A DNA stretch of 64,000 nt from Rhodobacteraceae bacterium HTCC2083 (GTDB lineage Bacteria; Pseudomonadota; Alphaproteobacteria; Rhodobacterales; Rhodobacteraceae). The translations under genes were made by a program, and so were the position numbers. This document shows positions 9,560 to 46,978 of the stretch, piece after piece (the stretch's first letter is position 1; the number at the start of each line of letters is the position of its first letter). The stretch spans positions 376,017-440,016 of the forward strand of contig DS995276.1 in assembly GCA_000156115.1 (NCBI GenBank), read 5' to 3'. The notes below the pieces were generated by a model. It was not told where the DNA came from, ran no database searches, and saw only the letters and a program-made list of their open reading frames with translations.

Positions 9560-9576
9560 TTTAGGGCTATCCTTAC

Positions 9577-9789: not shown

Positions 9790-10019
9790 GACAGGAGATC
9801 TTTGATTTGATGCCACAAGTTATGGATGTGAAACCGCAGGCCCGCGGCAATACACGCGACAGCGCATAGTGTCATGAAAAGCGCCTTGAGCACCGTTTCC
9901 TCTTTCCACAAAACATTTGCTTCGCCGGCGAAGAACACGCCTACAAGCAGGAACGTGAATGTACTTATTATCTCACCTTTGCTTCTGTGCTGGCGGCGAG
10001 GAGCCTGTTTGCGTATCAT
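9786..10019 (-). CDS. small two-helix membrane protein, flagellar accessory
   Basis: The 77-residue product has a very basic N-terminus (MIRKQAPRRQHRSK). Two hydrophobic helices follow (FTFLLVGVFFAGEANVLW and ALFMTLCAVACIAAGL), then a short His-containing tail. Its ATG overlaps the flhB stop (ATGA), and its own stop overlaps the start of the next gene in the same way. Translation is therefore coupled to flhB. I do not recognise the family. The tight coupling points to a part of the export or motor membrane complex (inference). Confidence 0.7.
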   Translation of the reverse strand: MIRKQAPRRQHRSKGEIISTFTFLLVGVFFAGEANVLWKEETVLKALFMTLCAVACIAAGLRFHIHNLWHQIKDLLS

Positions 10020-11167
10020 AAAAGCGCCTTTCCGTTTTCGTCAAATCGCATATCTTCAGGGAGTTCGACCTCTGGGGCATCGACCTCTTCTTCTTCGTTA
10101 AGTCGGTAGATAAACGCCAAAACCCCCGCCACAGCAGAGAACAAAGGCGCAGGAATTTCTTCACCAACTTGGCCCGCAAAAAACAAAGCACGCGCGAGCA
10201 GCTCATTGCGGAAAATGGTCACGCCCGCATCCCTGCCCGTCGAAATAATTTCTTGAGCAAAGTGCCCCCGTCCCATCGCCAAAATTGTTGGCGCTCCAAC
10301 AGTGCCAACTTCATACTTCAAAGCGACGGCAAAGTGGGTTGGGTTGGTGATAATCGCTGTCGCTGTTGGGACTGCATCCATCGCTGCTTTGCGCGCTTTG
10401 GCGCGCGATCCAGCCGTCATCTGCATTCTGCGAATTTTTGCTTTTACCTCAGGCGAACCTTCAGTTTGCTTGCTTTCGTCGCGGACTTCCTGAAGCGTCA
10501 TCTTGAGCTGCTTGTTATGCTGGTAATGTTGATACATCACATCGGCCATCGCCATGATGCCCAGCACAAACAAGAACACGATAATCAACAAAACAAACAC
10601 ATCATTCATTCGCGACAAACCACCAGTCAGATGCGTCGCGTTAGACACCAGCAAGCTTTCGATCTGAGACACAAAAACCATCACAGATGCGCTGATAAGA
10701 AGTGTTACTTTGCCAATCGCTTTGAGCATCTCGACCAAAGCTTTCATCGAAACCATGCGTTTTAAACCGCTCAACGGGTTAATACGGCTTGCTTTGAAAG
10801 CAAGCGCACCATTGGACCAATTGATTAATCCTGACATCGCTGCTTGTGTGGCAATCACAACGACAAGCATTGGAAGAGCAAAGACAACTGACTTCCAAAA
10901 CATGAACCGAAAGCTCGCGCCTAAATTGCCAAATATCGCGTCAGTAAGCCCCTTTTCACCCGAAAAAGAGAATAGCATGCCCCATTCTTGGACGAGGCTT
11001 GGCAAGACCGGGACAAGACCAACATAGATCAACATGCCAATGAAAAGCGTCGTAAAGACGAACAACTCTTTAGACGAGGGCACCTGCCCATCTTCTTTTG
11101 CTTTATCCAACCGCTTCTGGGTTGGTTCCTCGGTCTTCTCTTGACCGTCGCTTCCCCCTTCAGCCAT
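10016..11167 (-). CDS. flhB: flagellar type III export switch protein FlhB
   Basis: FlhB is the membrane component that switches export from rod/hook to filament substrates after FliK measures the hook. The 383-residue product begins with the typical acidic/basic N-terminus (GSDGQEKTEEPTQKRLDKAKEDGQ in part). It has four membrane segments and a cytoplasmic domain. The autocleavage motif is TNPTHFAVAL near residue 270. It overlaps fliR by one base and the small gene downstream by four, so it is embedded in the fliK-to-flhB operon. Confidence 0.97.
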   Translation of the reverse strand: MAEGGSDGQEKTEEPTQKRLDKAKEDGQVPSSKELFVFTTLFIGMLIYVGLVPVLPSLVQEWGMLFSFSGEKGLTDAIFGNLGASFRFMFWKSVVFALPMLVVVIATQAAMSGLINWSNGALAFKASRINPLSGLKRMVSMKALVEMLKAIGKVTLLISASVMVFVSQIESLLVSNATHLTGGLSRMNDVFVLLIIVFLFVLGIMAMADVMYQHYQHNKQLKMTLQEVRDESKQTEGSPEVKAKIRRMQMTAGSRAKARKAAMDAVPTATAIITNPTHFAVALKYEVGTVGAPTILAMGRGHFAQEIISTGRDAGVTIFRNELLARALFFAGQVGEEIPAPLFSAVAGVLAFIYRLNEEEEVDAPEVELPEDMRFDENGKALL

Positions 11168-11988
11168 TACGCAGACCCCTGAATACTGGTTTCAAGAAAC
11201 TCCAGAATGAAATTCAACAAATCGCGGGTTGCAAAGGCCATCGGCGTCGTCGCGAAATAGAGCGCGAAAAAGCACGCCAGAATGGTGAGTGGAAAGCCAA
11301 ACGAAAACAAATTGAGCTGGGGCGCCGAACGCGTGATGACACCAACGGTGATGTTGGCGAGCAATAGAATGGCAACAATGGGGAATGACAACAGCGACGC
11401 CATTGAGAACATATGCCCCCCAGACGTGAGCCCAGACGCAATCAATGCTTGAAAATTAAATGGACGACCCAGAGGCATAAGATCGTAACTGCCTTTGATC
11501 AATGCAATGCAAACCAAGTGCCCATCCATCGCGAGGAAAAGTACAATCCCAAAGAGGTTTAGCAGCTGGCTGATAACAGGAGTTTGACCGCCCAAGTTGG
11601 GATCAACCTGAGCCGCAAAACCAAGTCCCGCAGAAGACGCCACTTTCTCGCCCGCAAGAGCCACAGACGAAAAAAGAACTGTCAAAATGAGGCCCAGTAA
11701 TAGTCCCATCGCGATTTCGACCATGATAACTTCAACCAACAAAAGGAATGGCAGAGTTTGCGGATCTGGCACTTCGACCTTTCCGAAAAACGATACAGAA
11801 ATCAAAATGCTCACCATTACCCGCACCTGCACAGGGATAGAGGCGGCTCCAAAAAAGGGTGCCGAGAGAAAAAATGCGCTTAGCCGAATGGTGTGCAAAA
11901 AGAAGACAAGCCCATAGTCGAAGACCAGCTGTAACTCGACACCTCCAACACCGATGATGTCATCAAGATTTGGGGTTTGGGCGATCAT
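11167..11988 (-). CDS. fliR: flagellar type III export protein FliR
   Basis: FliR is a membrane protein of the export gate, which it forms with FliP and FliQ. The 273-residue length is normal, with about six hydrophobic segments and typical FliR stretches such as RLSAFFLSAPFFGAASIPVQVR near residue 35. The start ATG overlaps the fliQ stop by 4 bp, and the end overlaps the flhB start by one base. That is strong evidence of translational coupling through the export operon. Confidence 0.95.
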   Translation of the reverse strand: MIAQTPNLDDIIGVGGVELQLVFDYGLVFFLHTIRLSAFFLSAPFFGAASIPVQVRVMVSILISVSFFGKVEVPDPQTLPFLLLVEVIMVEIAMGLLLGLILTVLFSSVALAGEKVASSAGLGFAAQVDPNLGGQTPVISQLLNLFGIVLFLAMDGHLVCIALIKGSYDLMPLGRPFNFQALIASGLTSGGHMFSMASLLSFPIVAILLLANITVGVITRSAPQLNLFSFGFPLTILACFFALYFATTPMAFATRDLLNFILEFLETSIQGSA

Positions 11989-15268: not shown

Positions 15269-16870
15269 TTACAACAATATGTTGAGGCGATCGGGATCCT
15301 CGTGATCAATCCGATCCTTTTCAGCAGGCGCGTTTCGCTCTAGCAGCTCAATCTCGCCATCATCCTGTGGCGCGTTCTGGTCAGAGCCACCTTGCTGGCC
15401 TCGCCCGCCTGTTTGCGCAGAATACGACCCAAGCTTAAGACCAGCTTGATCAAAAGCGCTTTCAATCTGGCCCTGAACATCGCGCAACATCGCGGTGGTC
15501 GAAGCAACTTCAGCCATCATGCGAAGTTCAAGACCTTTGCGGCCATCGCTCAGCTTCAGCGTGATCTGACCCAGATTTTGCGGCAAAATGCTCAACGTCA
15601 TGCTGCCACCCGCTTGCGCCATGCTTGCTGCTCGGTTCACCAATGTTTTGGTCCAACCCTGACGCCGCAAATCCAAAACTACTGCGGCACCCGCACCGCT
15701 TGCAAAAGCAGTCGGCGCAGTTTGGGATGCCACGTTGGACGACTTCGACATTGTGGCACTGGCTTGTGTGAGTGCTAGTGCGGGCTCTGTATTTGGGTCA
15801 TCTTTAGGCAAGGAGTTTTCTAGATTGCTCTGCGCTGCGGCTCGTTGAATTGCCGCTTCGTGCACAACCTGCGTTGCTTGGGGAAAAGCCACATTGGTGA
15901 CACCCTCGCCCAAAGTAGTCTGGACGGCAGGGCGCGTTCCAACAGCCTCCAATGGACTGTCATCCGACAACACATCTTCGTTCAACCCATCAACGCTGAT
16001 CTGATTTTTTTCGACTTCAGACACCCGTTCTGGCATAACAATCGCAATCGCGGCCAAAGGATGAACACTGGTGGTTGCGCGCACCAAATCAGCGGCTTTT
16101 TCAGGCATAGGCACGCCAACGGGTACGTCTAAATCAACGGCTAGGTCTTCTACGGGGTCTGCCAAATCACGGGAATTTTGCGTACCAGAAGCTCCTTTGA
16201 TGGGCGCTTGGCTCCCAAGACGCGGCGCGGTCGTGTTTGCTAATTCTTCAGCAAGCTTAATCAGTCCAACCGTGTTCACCGGCTTAATGCTTGTCACAGC
16301 AGTCTTCAAAAGTGGATCATCAATCAACGTCGCATCGATTACAGGAACCTCTTGTTCACCTTGCGCAACCAAGAGCTTTGGTACGAACTGCTCTGAAAAG
16401 TCGGCGCTAAACTCAAGATCAACCGGTTCTATCAAGAGACTCTGGCCTTCATCGAAGAGCGCTGCGTCCTCAAGGCTCACTGCTAAGTTAACCGGAAAAG
16501 GAGCGCCCGCAGGCTCGGCCAAGACCACCTTTTCAGAAAGAATGCTCCAGGCTGGGACCGCCGCGAAATCGGGCCATGGATCAAGTTCAAGCTCTTCGCC
16601 CTCAACGACCGTTTCTTCAGGTTTTAAATTCTGACGGGGTGCCAAAATGCTATTGGTTTGCTCGCACGCGCCAATGCCTTCATGTGTTAGCGTCTCACCC
16701 ACCACGGTTTGCGCTGGCACCTCTTCATTCGCTTGAACAGCTACAAAAAGCGTCGCAAACGGTGTCGCTACAGCTCCCTCCCCTACGCCCGCCGCACGTG
16801 ATGTGAGTATCGACGACGAAGCCGACGCGACATCAAGTTTTGTCGATGAGGTTTGAAGTGTGGCGCTCAT
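15269..16870 (-). CDS. fliK: flagellar hook-length control protein FliK
   Basis: FliK is exported during hook growth and triggers the FlhB substrate switch. The 533-residue product has a long low-complexity N-terminal ruler rich in Ala, Val, Glu and Asp. The conserved hook-length domain near residues 420-500 reads GGSMTLSILPQNLGQITLKL and continues to a ...DVQGQIESAFDQAGLKLG type stretch. It is the first gene behind the sigma-54 promoter at 16905-16920. A longer-than-usual ruler is of interest because the hook subunit here is giant. Confidence 0.9.
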   Translation of the reverse strand: MSATLQTSSTKLDVASASSSILTSRAAGVGEGAVATPFATLFVAVQANEEVPAQTVVGETLTHEGIGACEQTNSILAPRQNLKPEETVVEGEELELDPWPDFAAVPAWSILSEKVVLAEPAGAPFPVNLAVSLEDAALFDEGQSLLIEPVDLEFSADFSEQFVPKLLVAQGEQEVPVIDATLIDDPLLKTAVTSIKPVNTVGLIKLAEELANTTAPRLGSQAPIKGASGTQNSRDLADPVEDLAVDLDVPVGVPMPEKAADLVRATTSVHPLAAIAIVMPERVSEVEKNQISVDGLNEDVLSDDSPLEAVGTRPAVQTTLGEGVTNVAFPQATQVVHEAAIQRAAAQSNLENSLPKDDPNTEPALALTQASATMSKSSNVASQTAPTAFASGAGAAVVLDLRRQGWTKTLVNRAASMAQAGGSMTLSILPQNLGQITLKLSDGRKGLELRMMAEVASTTAMLRDVQGQIESAFDQAGLKLGSYSAQTGGRGQQGGSDQNAPQDDGEIELLERNAPAEKDRIDHEDPDRLNILL

Positions 16871-27427: not shown

Positions 27428-28114
27428 TTAGGCAGAGCCCCAAGCTCGCTTTGGTCCGCTGTCAATATGGACAAACGTGCTGTACGTTCCGACACCGCCA
27501 GGACAGATATTCTTAGCCGCTTTAGACAACTCACGGATCGAAACATTCGGGAGAGAAAAATCAATCGCGCGCCCTTGTATATGGAGCGAACGCCGCGCAA
27601 CTTTACTGCTCGAACGCCTCAACATATTGTTGGTTTTCTTTGATCTATACCCGGAGGTAATTCTTACCTCCAACGCCCCAGATTTAGGCGCGTAGTTGGT
27701 GCACACATCAATCAATGTTTTTAAAACAGCACCATCAATCTCTTTGATCTCATTCTGGCGCCAGTCCCTCAGAAAATGGTTCAATTGCGAGACTTGCTTC
27801 TTCCTCAAGCCACCCTTTTCTTGAAGGCTCATCGGCATCTTCTCTCCGGTGTTCGCATTCAAGAACGCCAACTTCATTGAGCTTTTGATAATGAAGTTAG
27901 GAACGTGCTTGGGCGTCAAAAGGGTCATCGGAGCCAAATCAGGCTCATGGTCATTATAAAGGTTACGAAGACCATCACTCATATCGTCGCTGCGACTCAC
28001 GACTTTAGAAAAAAGACCGCCTCCCATCTTTATATCAAAAAGTGGAGCTGCAGTGCCCATGCTCGGCATAGCTAACGCCCCCAGCAAAACTTTGCGTCGC
28101 GTCAAAATCATCAA
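27428..28114 (-). CDS. DUF882/M15-type peptidoglycan peptidase, Tat-exported
   Basis: The 228-residue product starts with LTRRKVLLGALAMPS, a twin-arginine-type signal. The C-terminal half is a DUF882 (peptidase M15A-like) domain with ITSGYRSKKTN, the metal site SLHIQGRAIDF (His and Asp ligands) and TFVHIDSG (second His and Asp). Such enzymes cut peptide cross-links of peptidoglycan. It lies among flagellar genes, where FlgJ lacks its own muramidase domain, so local wall opening for rod passage is a reasonable role (inference). The stop of the next upstream gene is about 34 bp away. Confidence 0.82.
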   Translation of the reverse strand: MMILTRRKVLLGALAMPSMGTAAPLFDIKMGGGLFSKVVSRSDDMSDGLRNLYNDHEPDLAPMTLLTPKHVPNFIIKSSMKLAFLNANTGEKMPMSLQEKGGLRKKQVSQLNHFLRDWRQNEIKEIDGAVLKTLIDVCTNYAPKSGALEVRITSGYRSKKTNNMLRRSSSKVARRSLHIQGRAIDFSLPNVSIRELSKAAKNICPGGVGTYSTFVHIDSGPKRAWGSA

Positions 28115-28148: not shown

Positions 28149-28952
28149 CTACCGGGTCAATTTTTCAATCATGTCTGTATAGGTTTGCAGAATTCTCGAA
28201 GAACCCGAGAACTGCTGTTGAGCACGGATCATGCTCGTCATTTCTGTCGTCAAATCCACGTTGGACGATTCCAACGCACCTGTTTGAATACTTCCAAAAC
28301 CTTCAGATCCGGCAACGCCCAAAACCAATTCGCCTGACTCACGGCTCTCTTTGAAACGGTTCATGCCCATCTGACGCATCGCGGTCGTATTTGGAAAAAG
28401 AGCAATCGCGATTTGACCGACTAACCTCGGATCTTCAGACCCATAAGTTGCCAACATCTCACCGTCAGATCCAACTTCCAACGCCGTCAGCTTGGCACCG
28501 TCTTCGTTCTGAAAAGGCACAACCAATTGCTGCATACCTCGGCCACCAAGACCGTCATATCCGTAGACAATGTCATTTTTAGAAGACCGAAGAACGCCGT
28601 TTTCATCGAGCGAAAATTCACCATCGCGCGTAAATGAAAGAACTTCGGACGGTGTGCCATCTGAATTGGGAGTCGTTGTGACAAACATCCCGTTGCCTGC
28701 AAGCGCCATGTTCAGAACGCCATCGCGTTCCATCATGCCACCTTGCTTGGCACTTTGCCGCGTTTGTTCAACGATACTTCCCGTACCAGTCGCCGTGCGC
28801 GATACAGTTTCAGGTGAGGTCCCGTTATAGAGGTCCGCGAAACTTGCGTTACTTTTGCGAAACGCTGTCGTACCAGCATTGGCAACGTTGTTAGAAACCA
28901 CAGAAATTTCAAACATCGACGTCGACATGCCAGATAAGATTGTCCCAAACAT
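28149..28952 (-). CDS. additional hook/rod-family protein (FlgE/FlgF-like)
   Basis: The 267-residue product has the N-terminal rod/hook motif (SVVSNNVANAGTTAFRKSNASF) and the FlgE/F/G core (MALAGNGMFVTT, FTRDGEFSLDENGVLRSS). The usual C-terminus is present too (GSIQTGALESSNVDLTTEMTSMI, SSRILQTYTDMI). It is separate from flgE, flgF and flgG, which are all present at 36.7-42.6 kb. A strong AAGGAG site precedes the ATG, and a sigma-54-like element lies at 28987. It could form an extra rod, collar or hook segment; exact orthology is unknown. Confidence 0.85.
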   Translation of the reverse strand: MFGTILSGMSTSMFEISVVSNNVANAGTTAFRKSNASFADLYNGTSPETVSRTATGTGSIVEQTRQSAKQGGMMERDGVLNMALAGNGMFVTTTPNSDGTPSEVLSFTRDGEFSLDENGVLRSSKNDIVYGYDGLGGRGMQQLVVPFQNEDGAKLTALEVGSDGEMLATYGSEDPRLVGQIAIALFPNTTAMRQMGMNRFKESRESGELVLGVAGSEGFGSIQTGALESSNVDLTTEMTSMIRAQQQFSGSSRILQTYTDMIEKLTR

Positions 28953-29023: not shown

Positions 29024-30286
29024 TCACTTCAAATAATCAAACAAGGTTCTTTGCCCGATCTGAGAATATGCTTGTCGCGCGACGTTTTGCGTCAACATCA
29101 GTGTTTGCATTTCGGTGATTAATTTTTCCAGATCAGCAGATGCTAACTCATCCACCTTAAGCTCAAGCGATAAAGAGCGCGTTTCCAGCGTGCGTTCTTG
29201 AGTCTCCGCGCGCACCATTCTGGCACCCACGGTTGTGCGCGACACAGCGATGCTTTCACCAGCGGCAACGATCTTTTCGATCTGTGCTTCTAACCTCTGT
29301 GACTTCGGAACCAATATCTCAATCGGATCTTCACCGACGCTCAAGGTGAACTTCGGCTGTCGCATCGCTAAATCAACGCCCTCAACCTCTAAATTGGACA
29401 GCTCAATCCCACCTGTGGAACTACGAAGTTCGAGCTGCCCGTCCACTTCCATGGCAAAAACTCCAGTATTTTGGGTTTGCGCATTTATCGCTTCGAGCAT
29501 GCGTTGCGTTGAGCCATCAACAACGTCTTTCGCAACAATCGTTACCGCACCATCCGGCCCACTCAAATCAAAAGTCCAATCGCGTGGTTCACGGTCAGAA
29601 TTGACACTAAGTGTCAAATTTTTATCGCCCTCGGTTGTGATGCCGCTTATGGTCGTAAGCTCGGTTGCAAGCGCAGCACCAAAGCTGTCGATGATATCAA
29701 ACATCCCCTGCGAACCAGCTTCGGTTTGAACCTGCATAAAGACTTCACTGCCATTGACCGACGTCGGCAAACGCATGGTCTCAGACGCCGCCAATGTGTG
29801 ACTGCCTCCATCTCCGTGATACACGATGCGCCCGTCTTTGCCCTCTTGGAACGGCAAACCATCTGTTGCGTATCCGCCGAATAAGGCTTGGCCATTCGAG
29901 GTGCGAGTGTTGGCCAAGTCCACCATCGCATCGAACATTTGAGCAACTTCAATTTCGATAGCATTCAGATCTGACACATTCGCTGTCGAGCTGCTTGCCG
30001 TGATCGCTTGCTCTCGCAAACGCGACAGAATGGTATCTACATCGCTCAATGTCGTATCACTCAGAACCAAGCGATCCTGCGCAAGCCCAACGTTACGTTT
30101 GAACCCGTCGAGCTGTGAGACGCGCTCTTCCAAAGCAGACAACTCAACCGCAGCAAGGGGCGACTCCGATGCTTCGATAATCGCCTGCCCCGTTGAAATC
30201 TTCGTTTGACGCACTTGGATTTCGTCGTTCAAATCTGCGAAACGTGTCAACATGCGATCAGAGAAAAGTTTTGTGGAAATACTCAT
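29024..30286 (-). CDS. flgL: flagellar hook-filament junction protein FlgL
   Basis: The ATG at 30286 (MSISTKLFSDRML) has GAGG upstream and is preferred to TTG at 30298. The 420-residue protein shows the flagellin-like N-terminus (FADLNDEIQVRQTKISTGQAIIEASESPLAA in part) and the C-terminus with ASADLEKLITEMQTLMLTQNVARQAY. FlgL (HAP3) joins hook and filament. Its length is normal for the family, in contrast with FlgK next door. The fragment before the start codon overlaps the flgK stop. Confidence 0.92.
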   Translation of the reverse strand: MSISTKLFSDRMLTRFADLNDEIQVRQTKISTGQAIIEASESPLAAVELSALEERVSQLDGFKRNVGLAQDRLVLSDTTLSDVDTILSRLREQAITASSSTANVSDLNAIEIEVAQMFDAMVDLANTRTSNGQALFGGYATDGLPFQEGKDGRIVYHGDGGSHTLAASETMRLPTSVNGSEVFMQVQTEAGSQGMFDIIDSFGAALATELTTISGITTEGDKNLTLSVNSDREPRDWTFDLSGPDGAVTIVAKDVVDGSTQRMLEAINAQTQNTGVFAMEVDGQLELRSSTGGIELSNLEVEGVDLAMRQPKFTLSVGEDPIEILVPKSQRLEAQIEKIVAAGESIAVSRTTVGARMVRAETQERTLETRSLSLELKVDELASADLEKLITEMQTLMLTQNVARQAYSQIGQRTLFDYLK

Positions 30287-30294
30287 AAGAAACC

Positions 30295-33200
30295 TCAAGA
30301 AATTTGCAAAATCGTATCAAACAACTCGCGCGCGGTTTGCAGAATGCGTGCAGCGGCTTGGTAAGCTTGCTGTTGTGACATCAGTTGAGCCGCTTCGTCG
30401 TCCATTTTGACTCCACTCAACTCGCTCTCCGCCGCGACAGCCGCGTCGTAGACAGCTTCGTTTGATAAATTCGTCAAACGCGCAGCTTCCAACGTCGCGC
30501 CTACTTCGGAGGCAATGTTGCGGAAATCGTCCTGAAAGCTAGTTATACCAGCGCGGTTTTGACCATAAGCGGCCAAGACATCCATATTACGTGAATCACC
30601 TGGCGCACGTTGGCCAGTGGCAAGCTCAAAACTGTCTCCAGTCTCCGCGAAACCCGAGAATTCAATATTTTGCCCTGATACATTAAAATGGGTAACCCCG
30701 TTCGATGTTCGCGTCGCGATAGACGCTCCAGAATCGAGATCAAACAATTCGACGCGACCTGTTTCAGCATCAATCATCTCGATACGAAACTGCGCAGAAC
30801 CCCTATCTGCATCCGACATGACAGGACCCGTTTCAAATTCAGCCGCAAGGCGTTTAGCCCCCTGCCCGCCCATGACGACAATCAATTCTTCGTCAGGAAT
30901 ATCATTTAAACGCACATACGATTCAGCCGAGCTCACACCACCTGCGACGATATCAACCGCAACGCCACCGGTGCTTCGGGCATTCAATATGCCGTTCTGA
31001 ACTGTCAGATCGACAGTCCCGACTTTAAACCCAAGCTTCTGCGCCGCCTCACTCGGGCTTACCGAAAGTGCCCCCATCTGCGATTGCAAAACACTCAGGC
31101 TAAGCGCACTTTGTCCTGAAGACGTCGAAACGATCTGCGCGCTTATCAATCCTTGCGCCGACTGAGGAAGCGTTATCGCAAAGGTGCCGTCCTCAACGGC
31201 AACCGAAACCTCATGCTCGATCCCGTTTAGATCAACATCAAATTGATACTCACCATCCGCAAGCCCCGCCAAAATCTCACGACCTTGCAGAGATGCTTTG
31301 CTTTGTGTCGCACCAAGCCCGAATTGTTGGGCTGTTTCATCGGCAACTGCCACGGGCCCTTGCCCCGACAGCTGGCCGCCAACGACAGCCAGCGAAAGCG
31401 CATACGTCCCGTTCTCTTCGATCAAACGCGGAACAATGCGTCCTCCCTCAGGACCTGTCACCGCAAAGTCCAACTGGCTTAGACGGCTCGGATCTCCGTC
31501 ATCAACACGTGTCAGCGTGTACTCAGCCCCACCAAGCAAGAACTTGGCGGCACTGCCAACCGCTGGGATATCTTCAAGCGTCATAGCCGAGCCAAGCAAT
31601 GAAGGGATTGGCGCTTCGCTGCGCAGTTCAGCAACCGTGTTCAAGGCGACGTCCGTATCGGAGGGAAAAGACCCCGTGCCCACATTGGCGCGAAAGACTG
31701 TGCCGTCCGGCATGCGTAGCGCAGTTTCAAAGCGTGCTGAGGGCGCATGCACGCGCGAGCCGTCGACATTGCTAGCCACACCATCAATTTTTGGATCTAT
31801 ATTGTAACGCAACGCAGCATTCGAACCACCTGCGCTCAAATCTTTCGTCACCAATCCACCAACCGTCGGTTCCCGCTTGGAGGAAAGCGAATGTGACTCA
31901 TCCCCGATGCGCGCACTGCTCAGATCAAACTCTGCATTGCTACTAAACTGGACTGTTCCACTTATGCGCATATCCGCATCCAAAGACACGGACATCTGCG
32001 GGTTGATCGCATCATCCAGCGCAAGCGATTGGTAACTCTGATCCAGCACGGAAACAGACATACTGATACCGCTCAAAGACACATTGCTTAGCCCAATATC
32101 GAACCCAGCTTCTTGCGTCAGTGTCAGGCCATCTTTTGTCGTTGTCAGATCTGCACGAATGCCCGTTTCAGATGATCTTAAATTGACGGCGTCCACGAAA
32201 GCGGTCAGATCGCCATCGCTCACAAATGCACTTATGGATGCAGCTTCTGCGCTAGAGCCAGTCAAATCCAGTTGCATCGACCCATTCGAACCCGTGTCTA
32301 AATTGAGACCAACGACAGTCATCGCATTTGCTTGAACACCAACCGAGACCAAAGCAGCATTCGCACTTTCAGCGACATAGGCCGCATCAACCGCAGGCGG
32401 GATTTCGAATGAACGCTCAGCGCCAGTCGCCAGCGCAAGCGTGAGTGTTTGCGCTTGGGTTTCATTCACTCGCAGATCAGAAGAAATGTTACCACTATTA
32501 CTCCCGCGCAACCCTGAGAGACTGCTCGATAGCGCGTTCAAACCACTGTTCATCGGGTCGCTACTGCTCTGACTTTGAACAATACTAAGCCCTCGATATC
32601 CAACGCCGTTGGTCACCGTTGTGTAATCAGCGTGATATTCCGCTTCTGAACTGAACCCGTTCTCGAATGTCAAAAGCTCCGCGGCTTCGTCAGCCGCCAA
32701 TGGTGGTCCGGAAATTTGTCGCCCTTCGCGCGTGAAAACACGAATGTCTGATGCGGACTGTGCTGCGACAACGTCAGTGCTTAGACTATTTCCTGAAGAT
32801 GCACGCGCGGCCATTGCGCTCAAATCACGCGAGCCGTCAGAAGCGAAAACCAATCCTTTTTGAGATCCAGTCACAGTCAGGCCGAGCTGCGCGATTGATT
32901 GCCCACCAGTACTTTTCAAAAGCCCTGACGTAAGGTGATGCGCAATCTCTGATCCAGACCTCCACTCTTCAGCATCCACCGAAGCAGGATCTAAAGAGAA
33001 CATATGCCCCATGCCGTCCAAGGTTAAAGCAATCGTCGAAATATCTGCATCATTTTGCGCAATGACTGTGGCTGTCGCTTGCGTCGCAAAACTCGCAAGC
33101 GTGATCTCTTGTGTGCCACGTGGGATCATTCCAACCACACCCGCTCTTAAGAAATCTTGCGCAACGACTGGTGACAAATTGTTTGCGAGGCTTTCTGTGA

Positions 33201-34590
33201 TTGACGGCAATGCGCTAAACACGGGCTCAACCAGCGACGTCGATAGAACCGCGTTGCCCAAATTGGCAGGGTTCGGACTTATCGAAACGGTAGACGCTGC
33301 TGCGATTTCTTCGGGACGTTCTAACAAGAATGAAATGCGCGCTGCATCTCCGGTCTCACGTACAATATCAAAGGAGTCGCCCGCAGCCGCTTTCCCAACA
33401 ATTTCGATAACCGCGCCATCCAATTCAATCCGATTGCGCCCTTCTCCCAAAACCGCACCATCACCGTCTTTCAAGGTCCAAAAATCGCTCTTCACCTCAT
33501 AGCTTAAAGTCATCTGTGACAACTCATTTGCACGACCGGGCACCGCGAGAACGTTTACGTTTACCTCGACGTTACCTTTGTTAAGAGCGCTGCGAACAGG
33601 CGTGAACTGCGCTGTTGAAAACAACTCGCGCCCCAAATCGCCATCAAGATCGACACCTTGAGCGTGCTGTCGGTTCATCTGCGTACTAAAATTGCGCGCC
33701 AACTCGTCTAACTCTAGGATCGCACGTTGCGTTGTTTCAAACGCATCAACAAGCCCGCGCAATTCTGCGGATTCAAGCTGCGGAACGATTTGCCCAGATC
33801 CAATTCTGAAAGCGACGGCGCCTTGATCCGTCATCATTGCACTCAGCGTTTTCGCGTCAGCGCCGGTTAAAATAACAGGGCCTGCAACCGATGAACCCAA
33901 GCGTAACTCAACATCGTTGCGCTCGCCAATTGTAACATTGACGGGCAATATTCCTGAGAGCGTATCAATGAAACGATCACGTTCATCCAATAAACTGTGG
34001 GGCGGGTTCGCTCCAAAATTTGAAGAGCGTAATTGCGCGTTCAACTTCCCCAACACCTCGATGTTTTGGCTCGCTTCGGCCAATCGCATTTCAATTTCTT
34101 GAAACGTCCCTTCGCCAAGGTCATTCAACATCATCGCCGTCGTGTTGAAAGAATTACTGACGGTATGGCCCACTTCAATAGCTAGTGCGCGCGGGGCGCG
34201 ATCGCCTGGTTGTGCCGCAACTTCGCTCAAGGAATCGAAAAAGGCGGTCAGGGTCACACCCAAATCGCCATCCGTTGGTAGGATAGTGTCTTCCAACTGC
34301 TCCAACTTTTTGACAAACGCGTCAGAGGATTCAAAACGCGCCGTTGCACCCCGCTTGCTTTCGCTCAAAAAGGAGTCATATGCGCGCCGGATTTCTCCCA
34401 GCTTTACGCCCAATCCCGTCTGCGACATCACCGACGTCAACTCACTTTTAATATCAGACACTTCCGTCAAAGACGCTTCGCGCCGCCGATACCCTTCGGT
34501 ATTGGCATTCACAATGTTCTGCCCCGTGACATTTAGCGCTTCACGTTGTGCACTGACGGCACTGCGACCTATGTCTAGAAGACTTGCCAT
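30295..34590 (-). CDS. flgK: giant flagellar hook-associated protein FlgK
   Basis: The 1431-residue product is two to three times the usual FlgK length (about 550). Its ends are canonical. The N-terminus reads SLLDIGRSAVSAQREALNVT with NIVNANTEGYRRR; the C-terminus has LTNLSNEAVYDAAVAAESEL and QQAYQAAARILQTARELFD. Between about residues 340 and 1320 lies an insertion of beta-rich repeats rich in Ser, Ala and Asp. It includes a flagellin-IN-like stretch (DGDLTAFVDAVNLRSSETGI). The frame is continuous and codon use looks like that of neighbouring genes, so this is a real large protein. FlgK (HAP1) is the first junction protein. Confidence 0.93.
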   Translation of the reverse strand: MASLLDIGRSAVSAQREALNVTGQNIVNANTEGYRRREASLTEVSDIKSELTSVMSQTGLGVKLGEIRRAYDSFLSESKRGATARFESSDAFVKKLEQLEDTILPTDGDLGVTLTAFFDSLSEVAAQPGDRAPRALAIEVGHTVSNSFNTTAMMLNDLGEGTFQEIEMRLAEASQNIEVLGKLNAQLRSSNFGANPPHSLLDERDRFIDTLSGILPVNVTIGERNDVELRLGSSVAGPVILTGADAKTLSAMMTDQGAVAFRIGSGQIVPQLESAELRGLVDAFETTQRAILELDELARNFSTQMNRQHAQGVDLDGDLGRELFSTAQFTPVRSALNKGNVEVNVNVLAVPGRANELSQMTLSYEVKSDFWTLKDGDGAVLGEGRNRIELDGAVIEIVGKAAAGDSFDIVRETGDAARISFLLERPEEIAAASTVSISPNPANLGNAVLSTSLVEPVFSALPSITESLANNLSPVVAQDFLRAGVVGMIPRGTQEITLASFATQATATVIAQNDADISTIALTLDGMGHMFSLDPASVDAEEWRSGSEIAHHLTSGLLKSTGGQSIAQLGLTVTGSQKGLVFASDGSRDLSAMAARASSGNSLSTDVVAAQSASDIRVFTREGRQISGPPLAADEAAELLTFENGFSSEAEYHADYTTVTNGVGYRGLSIVQSQSSSDPMNSGLNALSSSLSGLRGSNSGNISSDLRVNETQAQTLTLALATGAERSFEIPPAVDAAYVAESANAALVSVGVQANAMTVVGLNLDTGSNGSMQLDLTGSSAEAASISAFVSDGDLTAFVDAVNLRSSETGIRADLTTTKDGLTLTQEAGFDIGLSNVSLSGISMSVSVLDQSYQSLALDDAINPQMSVSLDADMRISGTVQFSSNAEFDLSSARIGDESHSLSSKREPTVGGLVTKDLSAGGSNAALRYNIDPKIDGVASNVDGSRVHAPSARFETALRMPDGTVFRANVGTGSFPSDTDVALNTVAELRSEAPIPSLLGSAMTLEDIPAVGSAAKFLLGGAEYTLTRVDDGDPSRLSQLDFAVTGPEGGRIVPRLIEENGTYALSLAVVGGQLSGQGPVAVADETAQQFGLGATQSKASLQGREILAGLADGEYQFDVDLNGIEHEVSVAVEDGTFAITLPQSAQGLISAQIVSTSSGQSALSLSVLQSQMGALSVSPSEAAQKLGFKVGTVDLTVQNGILNARSTGGVAVDIVAGGVSSAESYVRLNDIPDEELIVVMGGQGAKRLAAEFETGPVMSDADRGSAQFRIEMIDAETGRVELFDLDSGASIATRTSNGVTHFNVSGQNIEFSGFAETGDSFELATGQRAPGDSRNMDVLAAYGQNRAGITSFQDDFRNIASEVGATLEAARLTNLSNEAVYDAAVAAESELSGVKMDDEAAQLMSQQQAYQAAARILQTARELFDTILQIS

Positions 34591-38441: not shown

Positions 38442-41400
38442 TTAAGTTCGAATGTTGATGATCGTCTGTGTCAGCTGAGTAGACGTTTCAATCGCTTTAG
38501 AAGACGCTTGAAAGTTTCGCTGAGCAGTAATCAAATTGACGAGCTCTTCCGTGATATCCACATTCGAACGCTCTAACGCGCCAGATTGGATCGAACCGAA
38601 ACCTTCTGTGCCAGCTTCACCAATCAACGGTTCACCCGATGTTGCCGTCTCAACGAAAGTCGCATTACCAACCTGTTTCAAACCGTTCTGGTTGTTGAAG
38701 TTCGCGAGAACAATTTTGCCAAGCGGCTTGTTTTGACCATTGGTATAATTCGCACGCAGCAAACCTGTTGCATCGATATTAAGTCCATCCAATCGACCAG
38801 AGGTGAAGCCGTTTTGCTCAAGGTTGTTAACAGCAAACGGTGTCGCTAACTGCGTTGAACTGCTGAAATCGATATCAAGCGAAATCGAGAATGAATCGCT
38901 CTGGGATTCATAGCGCGTCATGCCTTGAGGGCTGATCAACTTTCCCGTTTTGTCGAAGGTCAACTCTCCCTCATCTAGGTAAAGTGGGTAGTAATCTGCC
39001 ACAAGGTTGTCTGGCTCGGTATCTACGATATCGCCGTTCTCGTTCACGTAGAGCGGAATGCCATTTTCATTCGTAGCCTGAACCAATTTTGCAATTGTCG
39101 GAACGCTGCCCACACTCAACGGAACGTCATCCAAGCCGAGCTTCGCAGGCCCTTTGACGCGGATTGTTGATGTGTCACCCGTTGTCCCTGTCGTGAAAAC
39201 AAAGTTGTTTTCAGTCGGCTGGTACTTAACCGTGACACCACCAATAGTTTGACCAGTTTCTGGGTCGCGCATTTGGTTGATACGTTGCTCAAGTAGTTCG
39301 GCCAAGGTTGTGCCGATATAGTTGCCACCTGGGATCTCAATATTCGCGTTCACTCCGTTGACGGACACGTTGAAAGTGGTTTCAAAATTCGCGGGATTTA
39401 GGAAAACAGGCTGGCTGTTCAGAGGATCTTTTGCAGGTCCGCCAATCGCCTTTGCTGGTTCCGATTTCAAACCCGTACCTTCCAAGAAACCAACACTTAC
39501 AGTTGAACCAACACCCATCAAATGGCTTTTGCCGTCTGCCAGAACACGTGAGGCCAAATCGATTGTCCCGTCGCCTGTGATTGCAAGTCCTGTGCTCGCG
39601 TCGATTTCATAACGACCAACTTGAATGTTAGAGGCCTTTTGATCCGTCTCGACACCCATCGCCTTGTTCGCGCGAACCGCCTTACCTGTGGTGCCACTTT
39701 CAAAAGTAAACGAGTGGGAGTCTCGATCATAACTCACTTTTGCACCAAATCTGTCTGGGCTGCTACTGACAAGACCACCATCTAGGATAAACGGCGAGCC
39801 GCTGACATTGGTCGATGCAGTAATCGTCACCTTGCTCGAATTACTCAAAGCGCCAGCACTCATCGATGGTAAGTTTTCAGAGTTCCCAGACAACATCTGA
39901 ACCGCTGAAACATCACTGATCGTGCCACCTGGTCCAAGCGCTGTATGATCAATGTTAAAGACGATGCTTTGCGTCGCAGCATCATATTTGATCTTGATCG
40001 GCGGATTGCGCTCATCGACCCATTCAAGTTCAATCGCCGAGTTGCTAAGGCCAAAGTCAGACGCAGTTGGGCTCGCTTCGACGCCTAGTTGAGCTTCGAA
40101 AGCGCCAAAGATCGACTTATTCGAACCATTCACATTTACATCAGTATAGGAGTGACGCGCGCTTTCACGCTCGCGCAGGACGATACGCTGGCTGTTGAAA
40201 CTTTGAGCCGATCCATCAACTTGTAGATCAGCACCTTCAAAAAAGGCCTCAACATCTGAGGATGCTTCAGACAGAACAATAAACGGATTGTCAACGTCGA
40301 CGTCGATGGCAATGTTATTATCGGGCAAGCCCAAATCACCCGTTGCGATCTGGATCGTGTTACCATCCAAGGAGGTAATTCTATACGTGCGTCCATTGAT
40401 TGCGCTCGCCACATTGTCAGCGCCCATAAGGACGATATTGTCACCAACGCTTAGACCCGCGACCGATTTCATCGTGATAGACAAACGATCTGCTTCAGCA
40501 TCATACTCGATAGCGGGGCTTTGCCCAGACGTCGCGACTTCGCTCTGACGATCATACACTTTGACATCGGGACGATTGCCAAAGTTTGTGTATGCCATAT
40601 AGCGCTGCTCACTCACAGCAAAGGACAGCGACGATGCACCGGATTCACTTTCAATCGTTGGGCCAGTGATACTCAACACAGAGCCGTTTTGTTCAACAGC
40701 AACATTGCGAACCCCTGTTGCATCGATCTTTTCTTTGATCTTTAAAGCGATGCTTGTATCGGTATCCGTTGCTTCGACGTCAACGCTCAAAACGGCCCCG
40801 AAAGCTTCTAAACTCAAAGTCGTTGGCGCATTCGCAGTCGCACCTGAAACCGTTAGTTCACCATTGGCAACACTAATCTCAGGTGCTGTTGATGAAACGC
40901 TAAAGAGCTTCTCGACCTTGCTTTTGATTGCATCCAAAACTTCGGTTTCACTTGTCGCACCATCAGGAATGGCAACAAAGACATCACGATCTTTCACCGA
41001 AAAAGAGACTGATTTACCGCTTTCAGTTGGCGCATTTTGAATTGAGCTTACTGTGAACTCACCTTCAAAATAGTCGATGTCCCACCGATCCGATCCGTTC
41101 GCTAAACTGCTCACATCCAAATCACGCGTCGTGTATTCAAAACCGAAAGATTGCGGCATTTCGGGTGGATCTGCCAACTTCTCTGTCGTTGTGATTTTCG
41201 CAAATTGATTGCTTGCGATATTTGGTACTGCTGATTGGTTTTGACCCAACTGATCGTTCAAAGTGTCATTGATACGAGCCTGAGCATGCGCAAGGAAAGT
41301 ATCTAGTTCGAAGTTGGGTGACGTTAGATTGGCAACATCAATACCAGCTTGCGTCGACACAAAACTTGGCTCAAGCAAGTCAATCGAAACACTATTAGCA

Positions 41401-42641
41401 ACGGGCACATCGCCATCAGTGCTAGGCGTGAACAACTGAATGTTGATTGTGTCTTCGCCGCCTTTGCGCACCTCAACTTTGCGAGCATCATCGTAGGATT
41501 CGTTGATTGCGCGTTCGACCTCAGATGCCAATTCTTCGGCATTATAGTTGCCAGGACGAATAGAAATACTGACAGGTCGCGTACCATCATCAAGGTTGAC
41601 CAAAAGAAAGTCATTTCCCCAATAAACACCTTGGTTTGCAGCGTCAGCTTCGTAAGTGGCACCGAACAACATCGGGTCCGTCACAATTTCGATCTCTCGC
41701 GAACCCTCATCACCGAAATCAAACCCGCTCTGTTCTCCTGTCAGGATTGCAGGTTGAGACGGTAAACGCGTCCGCAGTTCATCCAACTTATAAAGCGGTG
41801 CACTACGACCGGCAAAGTAGCTCGGGTCAGGCACAGTCGTGGTCTGGTTGCCAAATTGGTCAATGTAAATCTGATTGCCATTGTCGTTAAGCGCAGGAAC
41901 CAAATCAGGGGAGACCACCTCGTCGTTGATAACAAGACGAGTTTCAAATTTGTTGGTAGGATCCTCAGCCGACGCCGCTTGAGTTTTAATATAATAAACC
42001 GTCGCAATTGTCGGGTTACCCAAATCGTCAAAAATCGTGAACGATGTTGAGTTTGTAAAGCTTTCAGGATCGTCAGGATCGAAAGTATAGCCATCCCGAA
42101 ACTTATCCTTCTCCATCGCCACTTCAGCGTTTGCGGGCAAATTGACGGATAGATCCACGTTTGTCGTTGCTTGGGGATCACCCGAGGTGACAGGCAAGCG
42201 CAAAGGCGTAGCGCTATCGATGTCTTTTGCCGTGACAGAACCGTCTTCGTTAACTGGATACGTCAGCAAAAATTGACCGGAGCTATCAACAACGTTGCGA
42301 TTGTTATCGACATTAAAAGAACCGTTCCGCGTGTAAACAACCTGCGTTGAAGTCTGGCTTGGCTTGAGCGCAAAGAAACCTTGGCCCGAAATCGCCATGT
42401 CCAAAGCATTCAAGGACGACGCGATGTTACCCTGTGTGAACTGTTGCTTAACGCCTTTCAGGATCGCACCCGAACCAATGGATGACGAGCTGTTTTGCAA
42501 AGGCGACGTCGCAAAGATATCGCCGAATTCAGCACGAGATCTTTTGAAACCAGTCGTTCCAACGTTTGCGATGTTGTTGGAACTCGTGGAGATATCTGAT
42601 TGGGCGTCGTTAAGGCCTGTAAGAGCGGTGTAGAAAGACAT
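38442..42641 (-). CDS. flgE: giant flagellar hook protein FlgE
   Basis: The 1399-residue product is about three times the usual FlgE (400-450). The N-terminal ~140 residues are canonical (SFYTALTGLNDAQSDISTSS, NVGTTGFKRSRAEFGDIF, MAISGQGFFALKP). So are the last ~120 (GKIVLANFNNQNGLKQVGNA, GSIQSGALERSNVDITEELV). In between lies about 1100 residues of beta-rich, Asp/Ser/Thr-rich sequence. It includes recurring units of the type PGNYNAEELASEVERAIN (near residue 370) and GGNYIGTTLAELLEQRINQM (near residue 1110). It should form a hook with very large outer domains. The frame is uninterrupted. Confidence 0.95.
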   Translation of the reverse strand: MSFYTALTGLNDAQSDISTSSNNIANVGTTGFKRSRAEFGDIFATSPLQNSSSSIGSGAILKGVKQQFTQGNIASSLNALDMAISGQGFFALKPSQTSTQVVYTRNGSFNVDNNRNVVDSSGQFLLTYPVNEDGSVTAKDIDSATPLRLPVTSGDPQATTNVDLSVNLPANAEVAMEKDKFRDGYTFDPDDPESFTNSTSFTIFDDLGNPTIATVYYIKTQAASAEDPTNKFETRLVINDEVVSPDLVPALNDNGNQIYIDQFGNQTTTVPDPSYFAGRSAPLYKLDELRTRLPSQPAILTGEQSGFDFGDEGSREIEIVTDPMLFGATYEADAANQGVYWGNDFLLVNLDDGTRPVSISIRPGNYNAEELASEVERAINESYDDARKVEVRKGGEDTINIQLFTPSTDGDVPVANSVSIDLLEPSFVSTQAGIDVANLTSPNFELDTFLAHAQARINDTLNDQLGQNQSAVPNIASNQFAKITTTEKLADPPEMPQSFGFEYTTRDLDVSSLANGSDRWDIDYFEGEFTVSSIQNAPTESGKSVSFSVKDRDVFVAIPDGATSETEVLDAIKSKVEKLFSVSSTAPEISVANGELTVSGATANAPTTLSLEAFGAVLSVDVEATDTDTSIALKIKEKIDATGVRNVAVEQNGSVLSITGPTIESESGASSLSFAVSEQRYMAYTNFGNRPDVKVYDRQSEVATSGQSPAIEYDAEADRLSITMKSVAGLSVGDNIVLMGADNVASAINGRTYRITSLDGNTIQIATGDLGLPDNNIAIDVDVDNPFIVLSEASSDVEAFFEGADLQVDGSAQSFNSQRIVLRERESARHSYTDVNVNGSNKSIFGAFEAQLGVEASPTASDFGLSNSAIELEWVDERNPPIKIKYDAATQSIVFNIDHTALGPGGTISDVSAVQMLSGNSENLPSMSAGALSNSSKVTITASTNVSGSPFILDGGLVSSSPDRFGAKVSYDRDSHSFTFESGTTGKAVRANKAMGVETDQKASNIQVGRYEIDASTGLAITGDGTIDLASRVLADGKSHLMGVGSTVSVGFLEGTGLKSEPAKAIGGPAKDPLNSQPVFLNPANFETTFNVSVNGVNANIEIPGGNYIGTTLAELLEQRINQMRDPETGQTIGGVTVKYQPTENNFVFTTGTTGDTSTIRVKGPAKLGLDDVPLSVGSVPTIAKLVQATNENGIPLYVNENGDIVDTEPDNLVADYYPLYLDEGELTFDKTGKLISPQGMTRYESQSDSFSISLDIDFSSSTQLATPFAVNNLEQNGFTSGRLDGLNIDATGLLRANYTNGQNKPLGKIVLANFNNQNGLKQVGNATFVETATSGEPLIGEAGTEGFGSIQSGALERSNVDITEELVNLITAQRNFQASSKAIETSTQLTQTIINIRT

Positions 42642-42683: not shown

Positions 42684-43376
42684 TTAAAGACGGAACCGCA
42701 GAACTTCTGCGGCACTCACGTCACCGTAGTCTTCAACTTCAAGCTGGGCCTCACCAGACCCTGCAATTGAAGCTCCGATCACTTCAGCAAACACGTTTGG
42801 CACAAGCCCTTCAGGACCGTCACCATAGTTTACCGTTACATCTAACTTCATACTGCGATGTCCGTCGCGATATTCTTCTGGCAGGTCTGTCCACTCAAAA
42901 CCCGACATGCCACTTGCGCGGGCACCAAGGTCTAGCGTGTGCAACACTTCGCCCGTTTCTGCGTCTAGAAATTCAACTCGAGTTTCCAGTGAGGTGCGCT
43001 CAAGATCCAATACGCCATGCACTTCGCCCTTGTCATCTGCGCGCGCAATATTGCCCGGCAATAAGACCGAATGCCCCAGCATATTCACTGATGAGCCAAC
43101 ACGAAACTGACCCAATTGATCAGCAATAGTGTTCAACGTTTTACCCATGTCACTGATACCAGCGACCGATGAAAACTGAGCCATTTGCGCAATGAAATCA
43201 CCATTGTCCATCGGTGCGAACGGATCTTGGTTCTGCAACTGAGCCGTCATAAGCTTCAGAAAATCGTCTTGTCCCAGCTCTTCCTTAGCATCTTCAGGCT
43301 TGGCATCGGTCGTGCTAATCCCAAGTTTGGACAACAGCGCATTTTGCGCACTTAAACTGTTATTATCTACTTCCAT
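42684..43376 (-). CDS. flgD: hook assembly scaffold protein FlgD
   Basis: The 230-residue protein shows the FlgD signature LGQDDFLKLMTAQLQNQDPF with PMDNGDFIAQMAQFSSVAGI near residues 33-75. A C-terminal Ig-like/FlgD domain follows (LDLERTSLETRVEFLDAETG). FlgD caps the growing hook and is lost later. It lies between flgC and flgE in the flgBCDE operon. Its length is normal even though its client FlgE is giant. Confidence 0.96.
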   Translation of the reverse strand: MEVDNNSLSAQNALLSKLGISTTDAKPEDAKEELGQDDFLKLMTAQLQNQDPFAPMDNGDFIAQMAQFSSVAGISDMGKTLNTIADQLGQFRVGSSVNMLGHSVLLPGNIARADDKGEVHGVLDLERTSLETRVEFLDAETGEVLHTLDLGARASGMSGFEWTDLPEEYRDGHRSMKLDVTVNYGDGPEGLVPNVFAEVIGASIAGSGEAQLEVEDYGDVSAAEVLRFRL

Positions 43377-45328: not shown

Positions 45329-46978
45329 ATGGCGGAAATGAAGACTGATATTCTATCGGCGCTCAGTCAGAACGGCAGCGGCATCCAGCTGCAAAGCCTT
45401 GCCAGCAGCCTCGTAGAGGCCGAGACAAACAGCGACCGCGTTTTAACAGAACGCCGTGTTGAAGACGCCAACACGTCGATCTCTGCTATGGGACTTTTGT
45501 CGTCTCAATTGGGCCTGTTCAAAGCAGGCATGGCCAGTACTGCTGAATCCGCGTCACGCGTTGCCAGCTCAACGACGAACGCCGTCTCCATCGAAGTCAC
45601 CATGGAAGCGCTCGCTTCTGATGTCTCTGCTGTTGTGGAGGTAAACACCCTTGCCACCTCTCAGGTCCTTTCGATCAATTTTGACACCAACACGAACACC
45701 AGTACTCTATTGAGAGGGACGAGCATTTCGCTTGCGACTGACAATGCTATGACCCCACTCAATATTCCAATTGATGGAACCAACAACACGCTGACAGGGT
45801 TTACCCGTTCTTTAAACAGTATCGATGGCATGTCTGCGTCCTTAATCAACACCGGTGAGAGCATGGCTTTCATTATCAAAACCGATGCAGGTGTTATCAA
45901 CGCACTAAACGACGATTCCATCCGCTCTATCAAGGAGGCGTTGGGCCTCACCGCCAATGGCACCGAAGGCCAAAGCGATGCTACTAACAATCCTATGGGG
46001 ATTTCGAGCGATCTTGTCGCTGCGACAGATGCCAATTTTACAGTCGATGGTGTCAACGTCACACGTGAAAGCAATGTAATCGAAGATCTGTTCACCGGTC
46101 ATCGCATAACGCTCAATTCTATTGGAACCTCAACGTTGATTTCAAACGAAAGCAACACATCCGTGCGCGAACGGATCTCGCAATTCTTAGCTGAAGTTAA
46201 CACCCTCAAAGACTACCTCAAAACCGCAACCCAACGTGGGCTTAACGGCGCAGAAGAAGGGTCTCTTGCTGGCGACGTAGCTGCGCAGTCGATTTTAAGC
46301 AAAATGGGTCGTCTCACAACAGAACCGATTTCCGGCTTTGGCGAGCAACCAGTATATCTCGCGCAGTTGGGCATTAAAACTGAACTTGATGGCAGACTTA
46401 CACTTGATGAGGCCTCCTTTGAGCGCGCAATGGAAAAGAACCCAGAGATCGCTGAGGCTCTTTTTGCCTCTCAGTACGGCTCCAATGATCCCGGGATCGC
46501 AGTAACAGGGCTTTCCTTCGCACCGCCGAAAGCAGGGTCATACGCCTTGGTCTATGATCCAAACACCACGCCCCCTTCTGCAACGCTGGATGGCGAAAAT
46601 CTGGACATCAGCTTGGATAGCAATGGCAAGACAACCCTTCGTTCCTCTTTGGGCGACACGAACGGCATGACGATAACACTTGAAAACGAACAAGCCGTCT
46701 CCGCAAACGTGCGCTATGGCGTCAGCTTAACCAACAGTCTCGAAACATATAGTGATGCACTGATCGGCGCGGGTGGGTTGCTTGCAAGGCGCGAAACCGA
46801 ACTGACCGAAGATCTGCAAGACTTTGAAAAGGACCTGATCGCCATTGAAGAGCGGGTCAGCCTTCTCACAGAGCGCTACAACATCGAGTTTGGACGCATG
46901 GAAGCGATGATCGCCAGCATCAATGAAACTGGCGAATACATGGAAGCTTTAGTCGATTCTTGGAACCAAGATAACTAG
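45329..46978 (+). CDS. fliD: flagellar filament cap protein FliD
   Basis: The 549-residue product has a helical N-terminus (LQSLASSLVEAETNSDRVLT) and a beta-rich middle with a flagellin-IN-like repeat. The FliD C-terminal domain reads LGDTNGMTITLENEQAVSAN, RETELTEDLQDFEKDLIAIE and RYNIEFGRMEAMIASINETG. FliD (HAP2) caps the filament and guides flagellin folding. AAGGGAG upstream supports the ATG. The gene is convergent with the response regulator, only 9 bp apart. No fliS or flagellin gene follows. Confidence 0.93.
   Translation: MAEMKTDILSALSQNGSGIQLQSLASSLVEAETNSDRVLTERRVEDANTSISAMGLLSSQLGLFKAGMASTAESASRVASSTTNAVSIEVTMEALASDVSAVVEVNTLATSQVLSINFDTNTNTSTLLRGTSISLATDNAMTPLNIPIDGTNNTLTGFTRSLNSIDGMSASLINTGESMAFIIKTDAGVINALNDDSIRSIKEALGLTANGTEGQSDATNNPMGISSDLVAATDANFTVDGVNVTRESNVIEDLFTGHRITLNSIGTSTLISNESNTSVRERISQFLAEVNTLKDYLKTATQRGLNGAEEGSLAGDVAAQSILSKMGRLTTEPISGFGEQPVYLAQLGIKTELDGRLTLDEASFERAMEKNPEIAEALFASQYGSNDPGIAVTGLSFAPPKAGSYALVYDPNTTPPSATLDGENLDISLDSNGKTTLRSSLGDTNGMTITLENEQAVSANVRYGVSLTNSLETYSDALIGAGGLLARRETELTEDLQDFEKDLIAIEERVSLLTERYNIEFGRMEAMIASINETGEYMEALVDSWNQDN

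Follow-up and report, generated by a model that had tools for sequence, protein, structure and literature searches.

Does the flagellar cluster of Rhodobacteraceae bacterium HTCC2083 encode a genuine hook protein about three times the usual size, and, if so, how are its additional residues arranged in the hook? The window analyzed here (64,000 nucleotides, G000:C5:376017-440016 of a 4.0-Mb genome) contains a flgE gene for which an earlier note, made from the sequence alone, had claimed a product of 1399 residues with canonical FlgE ends. Both points hold: the open reading frame (ORF) begins with an ATG, directly upstream of which lies AAGGAGAG, runs without interruption through 1399 residues, and specifies a protein of 148.6 kDa with an isoelectric point of 4.3 and zero Cys. 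Its parts, from the N- to the C-terminus, are as follows:

38442..42641, minus strand: flgE, giant flagellar hook protein, 1399 amino acids (aa), with FlgE domains and FlgE hook proteins as closest PDB sequence matches
42147..42641, minus strand: N-terminal D0/D1 part, residues 1-165 (approximate boundary)
41835..42101, minus strand: first half of D2, residues 181-269
39051..41834, minus strand: giant insert in D2, residues ~270-1197, between two PF07559 matches
38805..39050, minus strand: second half of D2, residues ~1198-1279
38445..38786, minus strand: C-terminal D1/D0 part, residues 1286-1399

Pfam recovers, all above cut-off, Flg_bb_rod (residues 3-33), LlgE_F_G_D1 (83-127), FlgE_D2 (181-269) and Flg_bbr_C (1352-1397), and a phmmer search against PDB aligned the protein at both ends only, with FlgE chains as the best matches. 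The broader TIGR03506 FlgEFG model is passed (289.9 bits vs 70.25) and the NCBIfam FlgE equivalog cut-offs are missed (NF004240, 395.1 bits vs 472; NF004238, 387.7 vs 400); these misses restrict automatic naming and leave the domain evidence for FlgE intact. The position of the gene among flgB-flgL is confirmed by the family matches of its neighbors, and no second FlgE was found in the genome with the giant FlgE, PF07559 or an alpha-type FlgE from a relative as queries. Taken together, domain content, operon context and the lack of a second detectable FlgE make it the best explanation that 38442-42641 codes for a true hook subunit, the working hook protein of a flagellum.

PF07559 (FlgE_D2) matches the protein twice, with profile positions 10-91 at residues 181-269 and 55-142 at residues ~1198-1279 (the latter located at G000:C5:414821-415066 by a profile search of the same genome). 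As these part-matches flank the extra sequence, it must be a single insert of about 928 residues inside a split D2, rather than the roughly 1100 residues first estimated.

Could such a frame be an assembly artefact, a gene fusion or a decaying gene? Among 90 loci (L029-L118), all but six (L031, L032, L035-L038) carry a giant flgE, giving 84 carriers, 75 with complete ORFs of 1239-1547 aa (median 1281); left out of these 75 were the open-ended L056, L089, L099, L101, L105 and L115, the likewise open-ended L112 and L113 of under 700 aa, and L097. With L045 and L100 set aside as duplicates of G090 and G193, 73 of them and the window made up an alignment of 74 giants. When named genomes were scanned with the insert alignment, 107 of 217 pattern stretches held up, and 80 loci were retained. 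Two observations could be read as decay or patchwork: L097 has a 733-aa ORF only, and third-position GC content dips to 0.38 at residues 501-600, a stretch scarce in relatives. As few relatives have this stretch, the dip suggests that it may be a later gain. Elsewhere the insert has a third-position GC of 0.42-0.53, near the 0.465-0.555 of neighboring genes, and the 75 complete relatives, together with ratios of nonsynonymous to synonymous substitution rates (dN/dS) far below 1, already contradict this explanation, which we regard as scarcely credible; the earlier note had likewise dismissed an assembly artefact.

Conservation across the 74 giants divides the insert into three zones:

41217..41834, minus strand: inner insert, N side, residues 270-475, conserved (from occupancy and conservation in 74 giants)
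40017..41216, minus strand: outer insert, residues 476-875, variable (from the alignment of 74 giants and dN/dS)
39051..40016, minus strand: inner insert, C side, residues 876-1197, conserved (from conservation in 74 giants and dN/dS)

The ends are nearly invariant (mean conservation per 25-residue block 0.89-0.98 over residues 1-150 and 0.89-0.99 from residue 1276), conservation is mostly good over residues 270-475 and 876-1200 (blocks 276-475: occupancy 0.94-1.00, conservation 0.63-0.82), and 476-875 are variable, with 526-625 carried by only about 10% of giants. This conserved-variable-conserved order is what would be expected of a nested insertion with its outermost domains in the middle. 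Median dN/dS rises from 0.007 in the core through 0.025 in the inner to 0.08 in the outer insert, as computed by the Nei-Gojobori method on 26 independent pairs (22 used for the core, 14 inner, 11 outer); pairs with saturated or out-of-range dS were left out and the remaining dS is high, making these values rough. Purifying selection thus acts throughout, strongest in the core, weaker in the inner insert and weakest in the outer insert.

The faster outer zone invites a different account, namely that the outer domains mainly form a display surface, for adhesion to particles or algae or as a changing shield against phages or grazers, with stiffness a by-product. The outer part does evolve about three times faster than the inner and gains and loses stretches, residues 526-625 and an extra repeated stretch in L034 being examples; yet it is still clearly under purifying selection, the inner part more so, and any exposed layer of a mechanical part is expected to vary at its surface. 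We judge a primary display role possible though rather unlikely. The L034 case itself (7383-11741, plus strand) is the 1452-aa FlgE of G354, whose extra stretch, at about columns 880-1080 of the alignment and with a direct repeat visible by eye, looks like a module that the variable zone has acquired.

The earlier note had described the extra sequence as beta-rich with recurring units, and structure prediction agrees. AlphaFold2 model 1, of residues 150-1300, reaches a predicted local distance difference test (pLDDT) of 72.8 and a predicted template modeling score (pTM) of 0.66; model 2, which covers residues 20-1219 of L057, the smallest relative, reaches 66.9 and 0.54, pLDDT lying between 70 and 90 over most of the insert. 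Both are strand-dominated, with recurring strand-strand-helix-strand-strand stretches, two of whose helices are overlapped by a G-N-Y motif. The repeated elements are:

41502..41552, minus strand: G-N-Y motif copy 1, residues 364-380, GNYNAEELASEVERAIN, overlapping model 1 helix 219-234 (residues 368-383)
39597..39869, minus strand: internal repeat copy A, residues 925-1015 (hhalign)
39126..39389, minus strand: internal repeat copy B, residues 1085-1172 (hhalign)
39276..39326, minus strand: G-N-Y motif copy 2, residues 1106-1122, GNYIGTTLAELLEQRIN, overlapping model 1 helix 961-972 (residues 1110-1121)

Self-alignment yields one clear repeat, copies A and B, at an hhalign probability of 96 over 25 columns and of 92 in a blind scan of 946 segment pairs, in which the best reversed control reached 15 and no further clear repeat emerged. 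The G-N-Y pattern proposed near residues 370 and 1110 is real at 364 and 1106 but weak as a repeat: it scores 64 over 27 columns when the profiles are cut around the motifs, whereas the blind scan gives it 13, a value that the best reversed control exceeds.

Searches of known structures with the insert returned little. A profile of five insert sequences had a best PDB match at E 0.89, a level at which a distant fold could escape, and model 1 had no Foldseek match in PDB at E <= 0.001, its best related-looking one being the cyanophage sheath-tube 8kee (probability 0.98, E 0.025). Model 2 had three PDB matches at E <= 0.001, all FlgE hook structures. Against viral structures 17 matches reached E <= 0.001, several with very large root-mean-square deviation, and these can serve as leads only; two of them (probability 1.00, E <0.001) are phage tail sheath proteins, perhaps pointing to a general surface module, which would suit the display account. 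None of the solved structures found here thus resembles the domains of the insert.

The nearest precedent is the FlgE of Campylobacter jejuni, of 865 aa and 'one of the longest' in a passage of PMC5069557, in which D3 and D4 are inserted in D2 and the hook measures 280 A against 180 A in Salmonella; loss of D3-D4 leads to poor motility and broken flagella (both in passages of PMC5097172). The window FlgE is similarly built, with extra domains inside the D2 of an otherwise standard FlgE and layers outside D2, the insert being ~928 residues against ~386 in C. jejuni. It therefore extends a known principle far beyond 865 aa. The wider hook is measured in C. jejuni and predicted for the window FlgE: mass scaling from the Salmonella (18 nm) and C. 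jejuni (28 nm) hooks, with subunit masses of 42 and 92 kDa, 1.21 A3/Da and the same helical packing assumed, would give 339-356 A, about 34-36 nm, which agrees with the earlier note in its expectation of a hook above 20 nm in width.

Hence, we consider it fairly likely that the protein is a true hook subunit and that the domains inserted in its D2 add outer layers to a mechanically reinforced hook of about 34-36 nm, and advance the following mechanism. As in known hooks, D0, D1 and both D2 halves would form the standard 11-protofilament tube. The ~928-residue insert would leave D2, pass through the conserved inner domains to the variable outer ones and return to D2, so that the hook would carry additional concentric outer layers, a nesting suggested by the split D2 and the conserved-variable-conserved order. 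Inner domains of adjacent subunits might touch, as D3/D4 do in Campylobacter, making a thick, stiff, break-resistant joint; the junction of hook and filament, with its giant FlgK, might match this joint, and the outer domains, exposed to water, would be those that change faster. Alternatively, FlgE might be processed, with the insert removed after export to leave a hook of ordinary width; no evidence in support of this was found, and the insert sits between halves of one domain and is conserved, making such processing highly improbable.

Several points weigh against the layered, reinforced hook. Model confidence is moderate for both models, and the D0/D1 ends of model 2 fall below pLDDT 50. 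Neither sequence profiles nor Foldseek match the insert to a solved structure, C. jejuni FlgE included (it is absent among the Foldseek matches listed for the insert models, though a distant fold could escape), and the mechanical analogy is therefore one of position, not of shown homology. Nereida ignava carries the gene (L106, 1364 aa) and is nevertheless described as non-motile in a passage of PMC4770636. Finally, no FlgK-like ORF lies within the retrieved stretch at L064, L070, L080, L082, L085, L098 and L114, and the pairing of the two giants is not seen locally there.

How widely is the giant form distributed? Carrier titles name Rhodobacterales, SAR116 (many), the PS1 clade, HIMB59 and other Alphaproteobacteria, and include Thalassobacter stenotrophicus, Nereida ignava, Lentibacter, HIMB11, LSUCC0031 and IMCC14465; SAR116, PS1 and HIMB59 are marine plankton. 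N. ignava and HIMB11 came from seawater, as passages of PMC4770636 and the abstract of PMC4148974, respectively, state, and the latter source terms HIMB11 likely motile, judging from its genes. The nearest relative found, the FlgE of T. stenotrophicus (L039, 1406 aa), is 78% identical over aligned residues and shows no difference in kind. Two titles lie outside Alphaproteobacteria, L047 (Opitutia, a 6,279-base contig, counted among the 75 complete ORFs) and L056 (Halieaceae, a 3,421-base contig); these may be binning errors.

At the family level 10 of 120 genomes (own included) match at E <= 1e-20, with the giant form also in G045 (1253 aa) and G090 (1244 aa); the order sample added G193 (1361 aa) and G354 (1452 aa), each of which also carries an ordinary FlgE (453 and 439 aa, stop to stop). 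Ten of 385 class genomes (own included), in 7 of 277 genera, match at E <= 1e-90. Among the matches listed for the order, where 174 of 390 genomes have a FlgE match, frames >1000 aa occur in G000, G193 and G354; among those listed for the phylum (297 of 397 genomes) none exceeds 1000 aa, the largest being 667. A class sample of 220 genomes, with every match listed, gave FlgE_D2 matches in 108, nine of them with an open frame >1000 aa: six from the giant-FlgE clade (own included), two from another lineage and one with an actual ORF of 647 aa. Open-frame lengths run from stop to stop and overstate ORFs (G251, 671 vs a 425-aa ORF; G865, 1029 vs 647). Giant FlgE is not confined to one species but conserved as a trait in a clade of flagella. 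In a core tree the 74 giants fall on one branch, with a Shimodaira-Hasegawa-like approximate likelihood ratio test (SH-aLRT) value of 84 against eight long-branched ordinary rows, and a single origin of giant FlgE is therefore favored, not proven.

The expectation that this FlgE exceeds known enlarged forms stands with respect to the 865 aa given for C. jejuni in the passage cited above, whereas other large FlgE do exist in the class. Another Alphaproteobacterial lineage has FlgE of 1246 aa (L135), 1066 aa (L136) and 843-876 aa (L140-L142), with FlgE ends and a long middle; the two largest, from the same family, are:

L135 2652-6392, minus strand: large FlgE of the other lineage, 1246 aa
L136 4359-7559, plus strand: large FlgE of the other lineage, 1066 aa

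The insert of this lineage is not detectably related to that of the window (profile probability 0.4, with its profile built on few sequences), and its large FlgE is probably an independent enlargement. The L135 and L136 genomes each also hold a FlgE frame of 425-431 aa. For an 868-aa frame in G030 with a FlgE-like match, no FlgE ORF could be recovered. No description of a FlgE of the size seen in the window was found among the titles and abstracts listed from the open-access literature, subscription papers lying mostly outside that search.

The hook gene has an oversized companion:

30295..34590, minus strand: flgK, hook-associated protein 1, 1431 aa (FlgK_D1 and flgK_ends above cut-off)

Complete FlgK of 1127-1687 aa was found for 29 of the 74 aligned giants (window included), lengths being taken from complete ORFs of at least 1000 aa, with no complete best FlgK match below 1000 aa among those listed; FlgK frames of 1285-1793, stop to stop, occur in 9/9 class genomes with giant FlgE. 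Ten ordinary-FlgE clusters were examined (L125-L133 and L038; L134 is a mere continuation of G193 and was not counted), eight of which pair a FlgK of 1342-1381 aa with a FlgE of 416-505 aa; the stretch examined at L127 holds no FlgK, and L131 has a weakly matching FlgK-like ORF of 649 aa. As giant FlgK stands beside ordinary FlgE in these eight clusters, its enlargement probably preceded that of FlgE. A comparable FlgK1 of 1363 residues, with a bulky junction region where deletions impair swimming, is described in passages of PMC7277832 for Rhodobacter sphaeroides. The Fla1 system of that species resembles the window cluster in its giant FlgK, as far as gene content goes, and differs in its FlgE, of 423 aa in the same source against 1399 here. 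Rhodobacterales flagellar clusters are sorted into fla1, fla2 and fla3 in a passage of PMC12363192.

The coincidence of two giants raises the further idea that FlgE and FlgK grew by copying one shared module, their size reflecting neutral drift of repeats. The internal repeat of 925-1015 with 1085-1172 would fit this, but it is the single clear one in the blind scan, and selection is strong. Comparison of the FlgE and FlgK inserts gave a best probability of 40 in 780 profile pairs, against 14 for the reversed control, which is suggestive at most and left shared insert modules unconvincing as a candidate; nor does Flagellin_IN match at E 1 in the window FlgE or FlgK. We regard this origin as improbable.

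Returning to the reinforced hook, we would put forward, as a proposal about as apt to fail as to hold, that marine planktonic bacteria have a hook of a new structural class. It would measure about 35 nm across, probably exceeding its own filament in thickness, and combine a conserved inner armor of folds unmatched in solved proteins with a fast-changing outer layer and a giant FlgK partner; even genomes of ~1.4 Mb would have retained it, and it would have passed from order to order as part of a replacement flagellum. What can be read from these genes is that the universal joint of textbooks would here be built from subunits of about three times the usual size, under strong selection and with an equally oversized junction protein, and with the giant-FlgE clade nature supplies a test of the influence that width and stiffness of the hook have on swimming.

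The remaining structural genes of the hook and filament that frame this system are:

29024..30298, minus strand: flgL, 424 aa (TIGR02550 above cut-off)
42684..43376, minus strand: flgD, hook-cap protein, 230 aa (PF03963 above cut-off)
15269..16870, minus strand: fliK, hook-length control protein, 533 aa (PF02120 above cut-off)
45329..46978, plus strand: fliD, filament cap protein, 549 aa (FliD_N and FliD_C above cut-off)
L031 1065-3713, minus strand: flagellin, 882 aa, immediately preceding the window

Genes assigned to the cluster by family matches are flgD, flgE, flgF, flgG, flgK, flgL, fliD, fliE, fliF, fliG and fliH; the export and motor genes fliK, fliL, fliM, fliP, motB, a fliI-like ATPase and fliR-like, flhB-like and motA-like genes; and flgH, flgI, a rod-binding flgJ-like gene and, at the positions of flgB and flgC, genes for two small rod proteins. 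Relevant to the Fla1 comparison, the cluster also has a gene for sigma-54, two for sigma-54 activators, and one each for a FliA-like sigma and a MinD-like ATPase. The FlhA gene lies just outside the window; the ORF after flhA in L031, whose start suggested flhF, has no Pfam match and was left unnamed. Flagellin-like frames, FlgL-like ones included, occur in 12 of 13 other giant-FlgE genomes, with lengths of 224-1618.

A second, incomplete flagellar set near C5:1.656-1.662 Mb (L032 9889-15960) contains FliE, FlgA, FlgH, three rod proteins and a FliI-like ATPase, the ORF beyond it being unrelated, and a second FlhA (C5:1540621-1542360) matches profile positions 80-655 of 657 only, the start of the profile missing. 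This set is perhaps an older system in decay, the rest of the genome not having been searched gene by gene. Downstream of flgL in the window lie an extra FlgF/FlgG-like rod protein (267 aa, 28149-28952, minus strand), directly adjoining it, and an M15-type peptidase (DUF882; 27428-28114, minus strand), and near the edge of the flagellar cluster an IstB-like ATPase of an IS21-type element occupies 868-1665 (minus strand).

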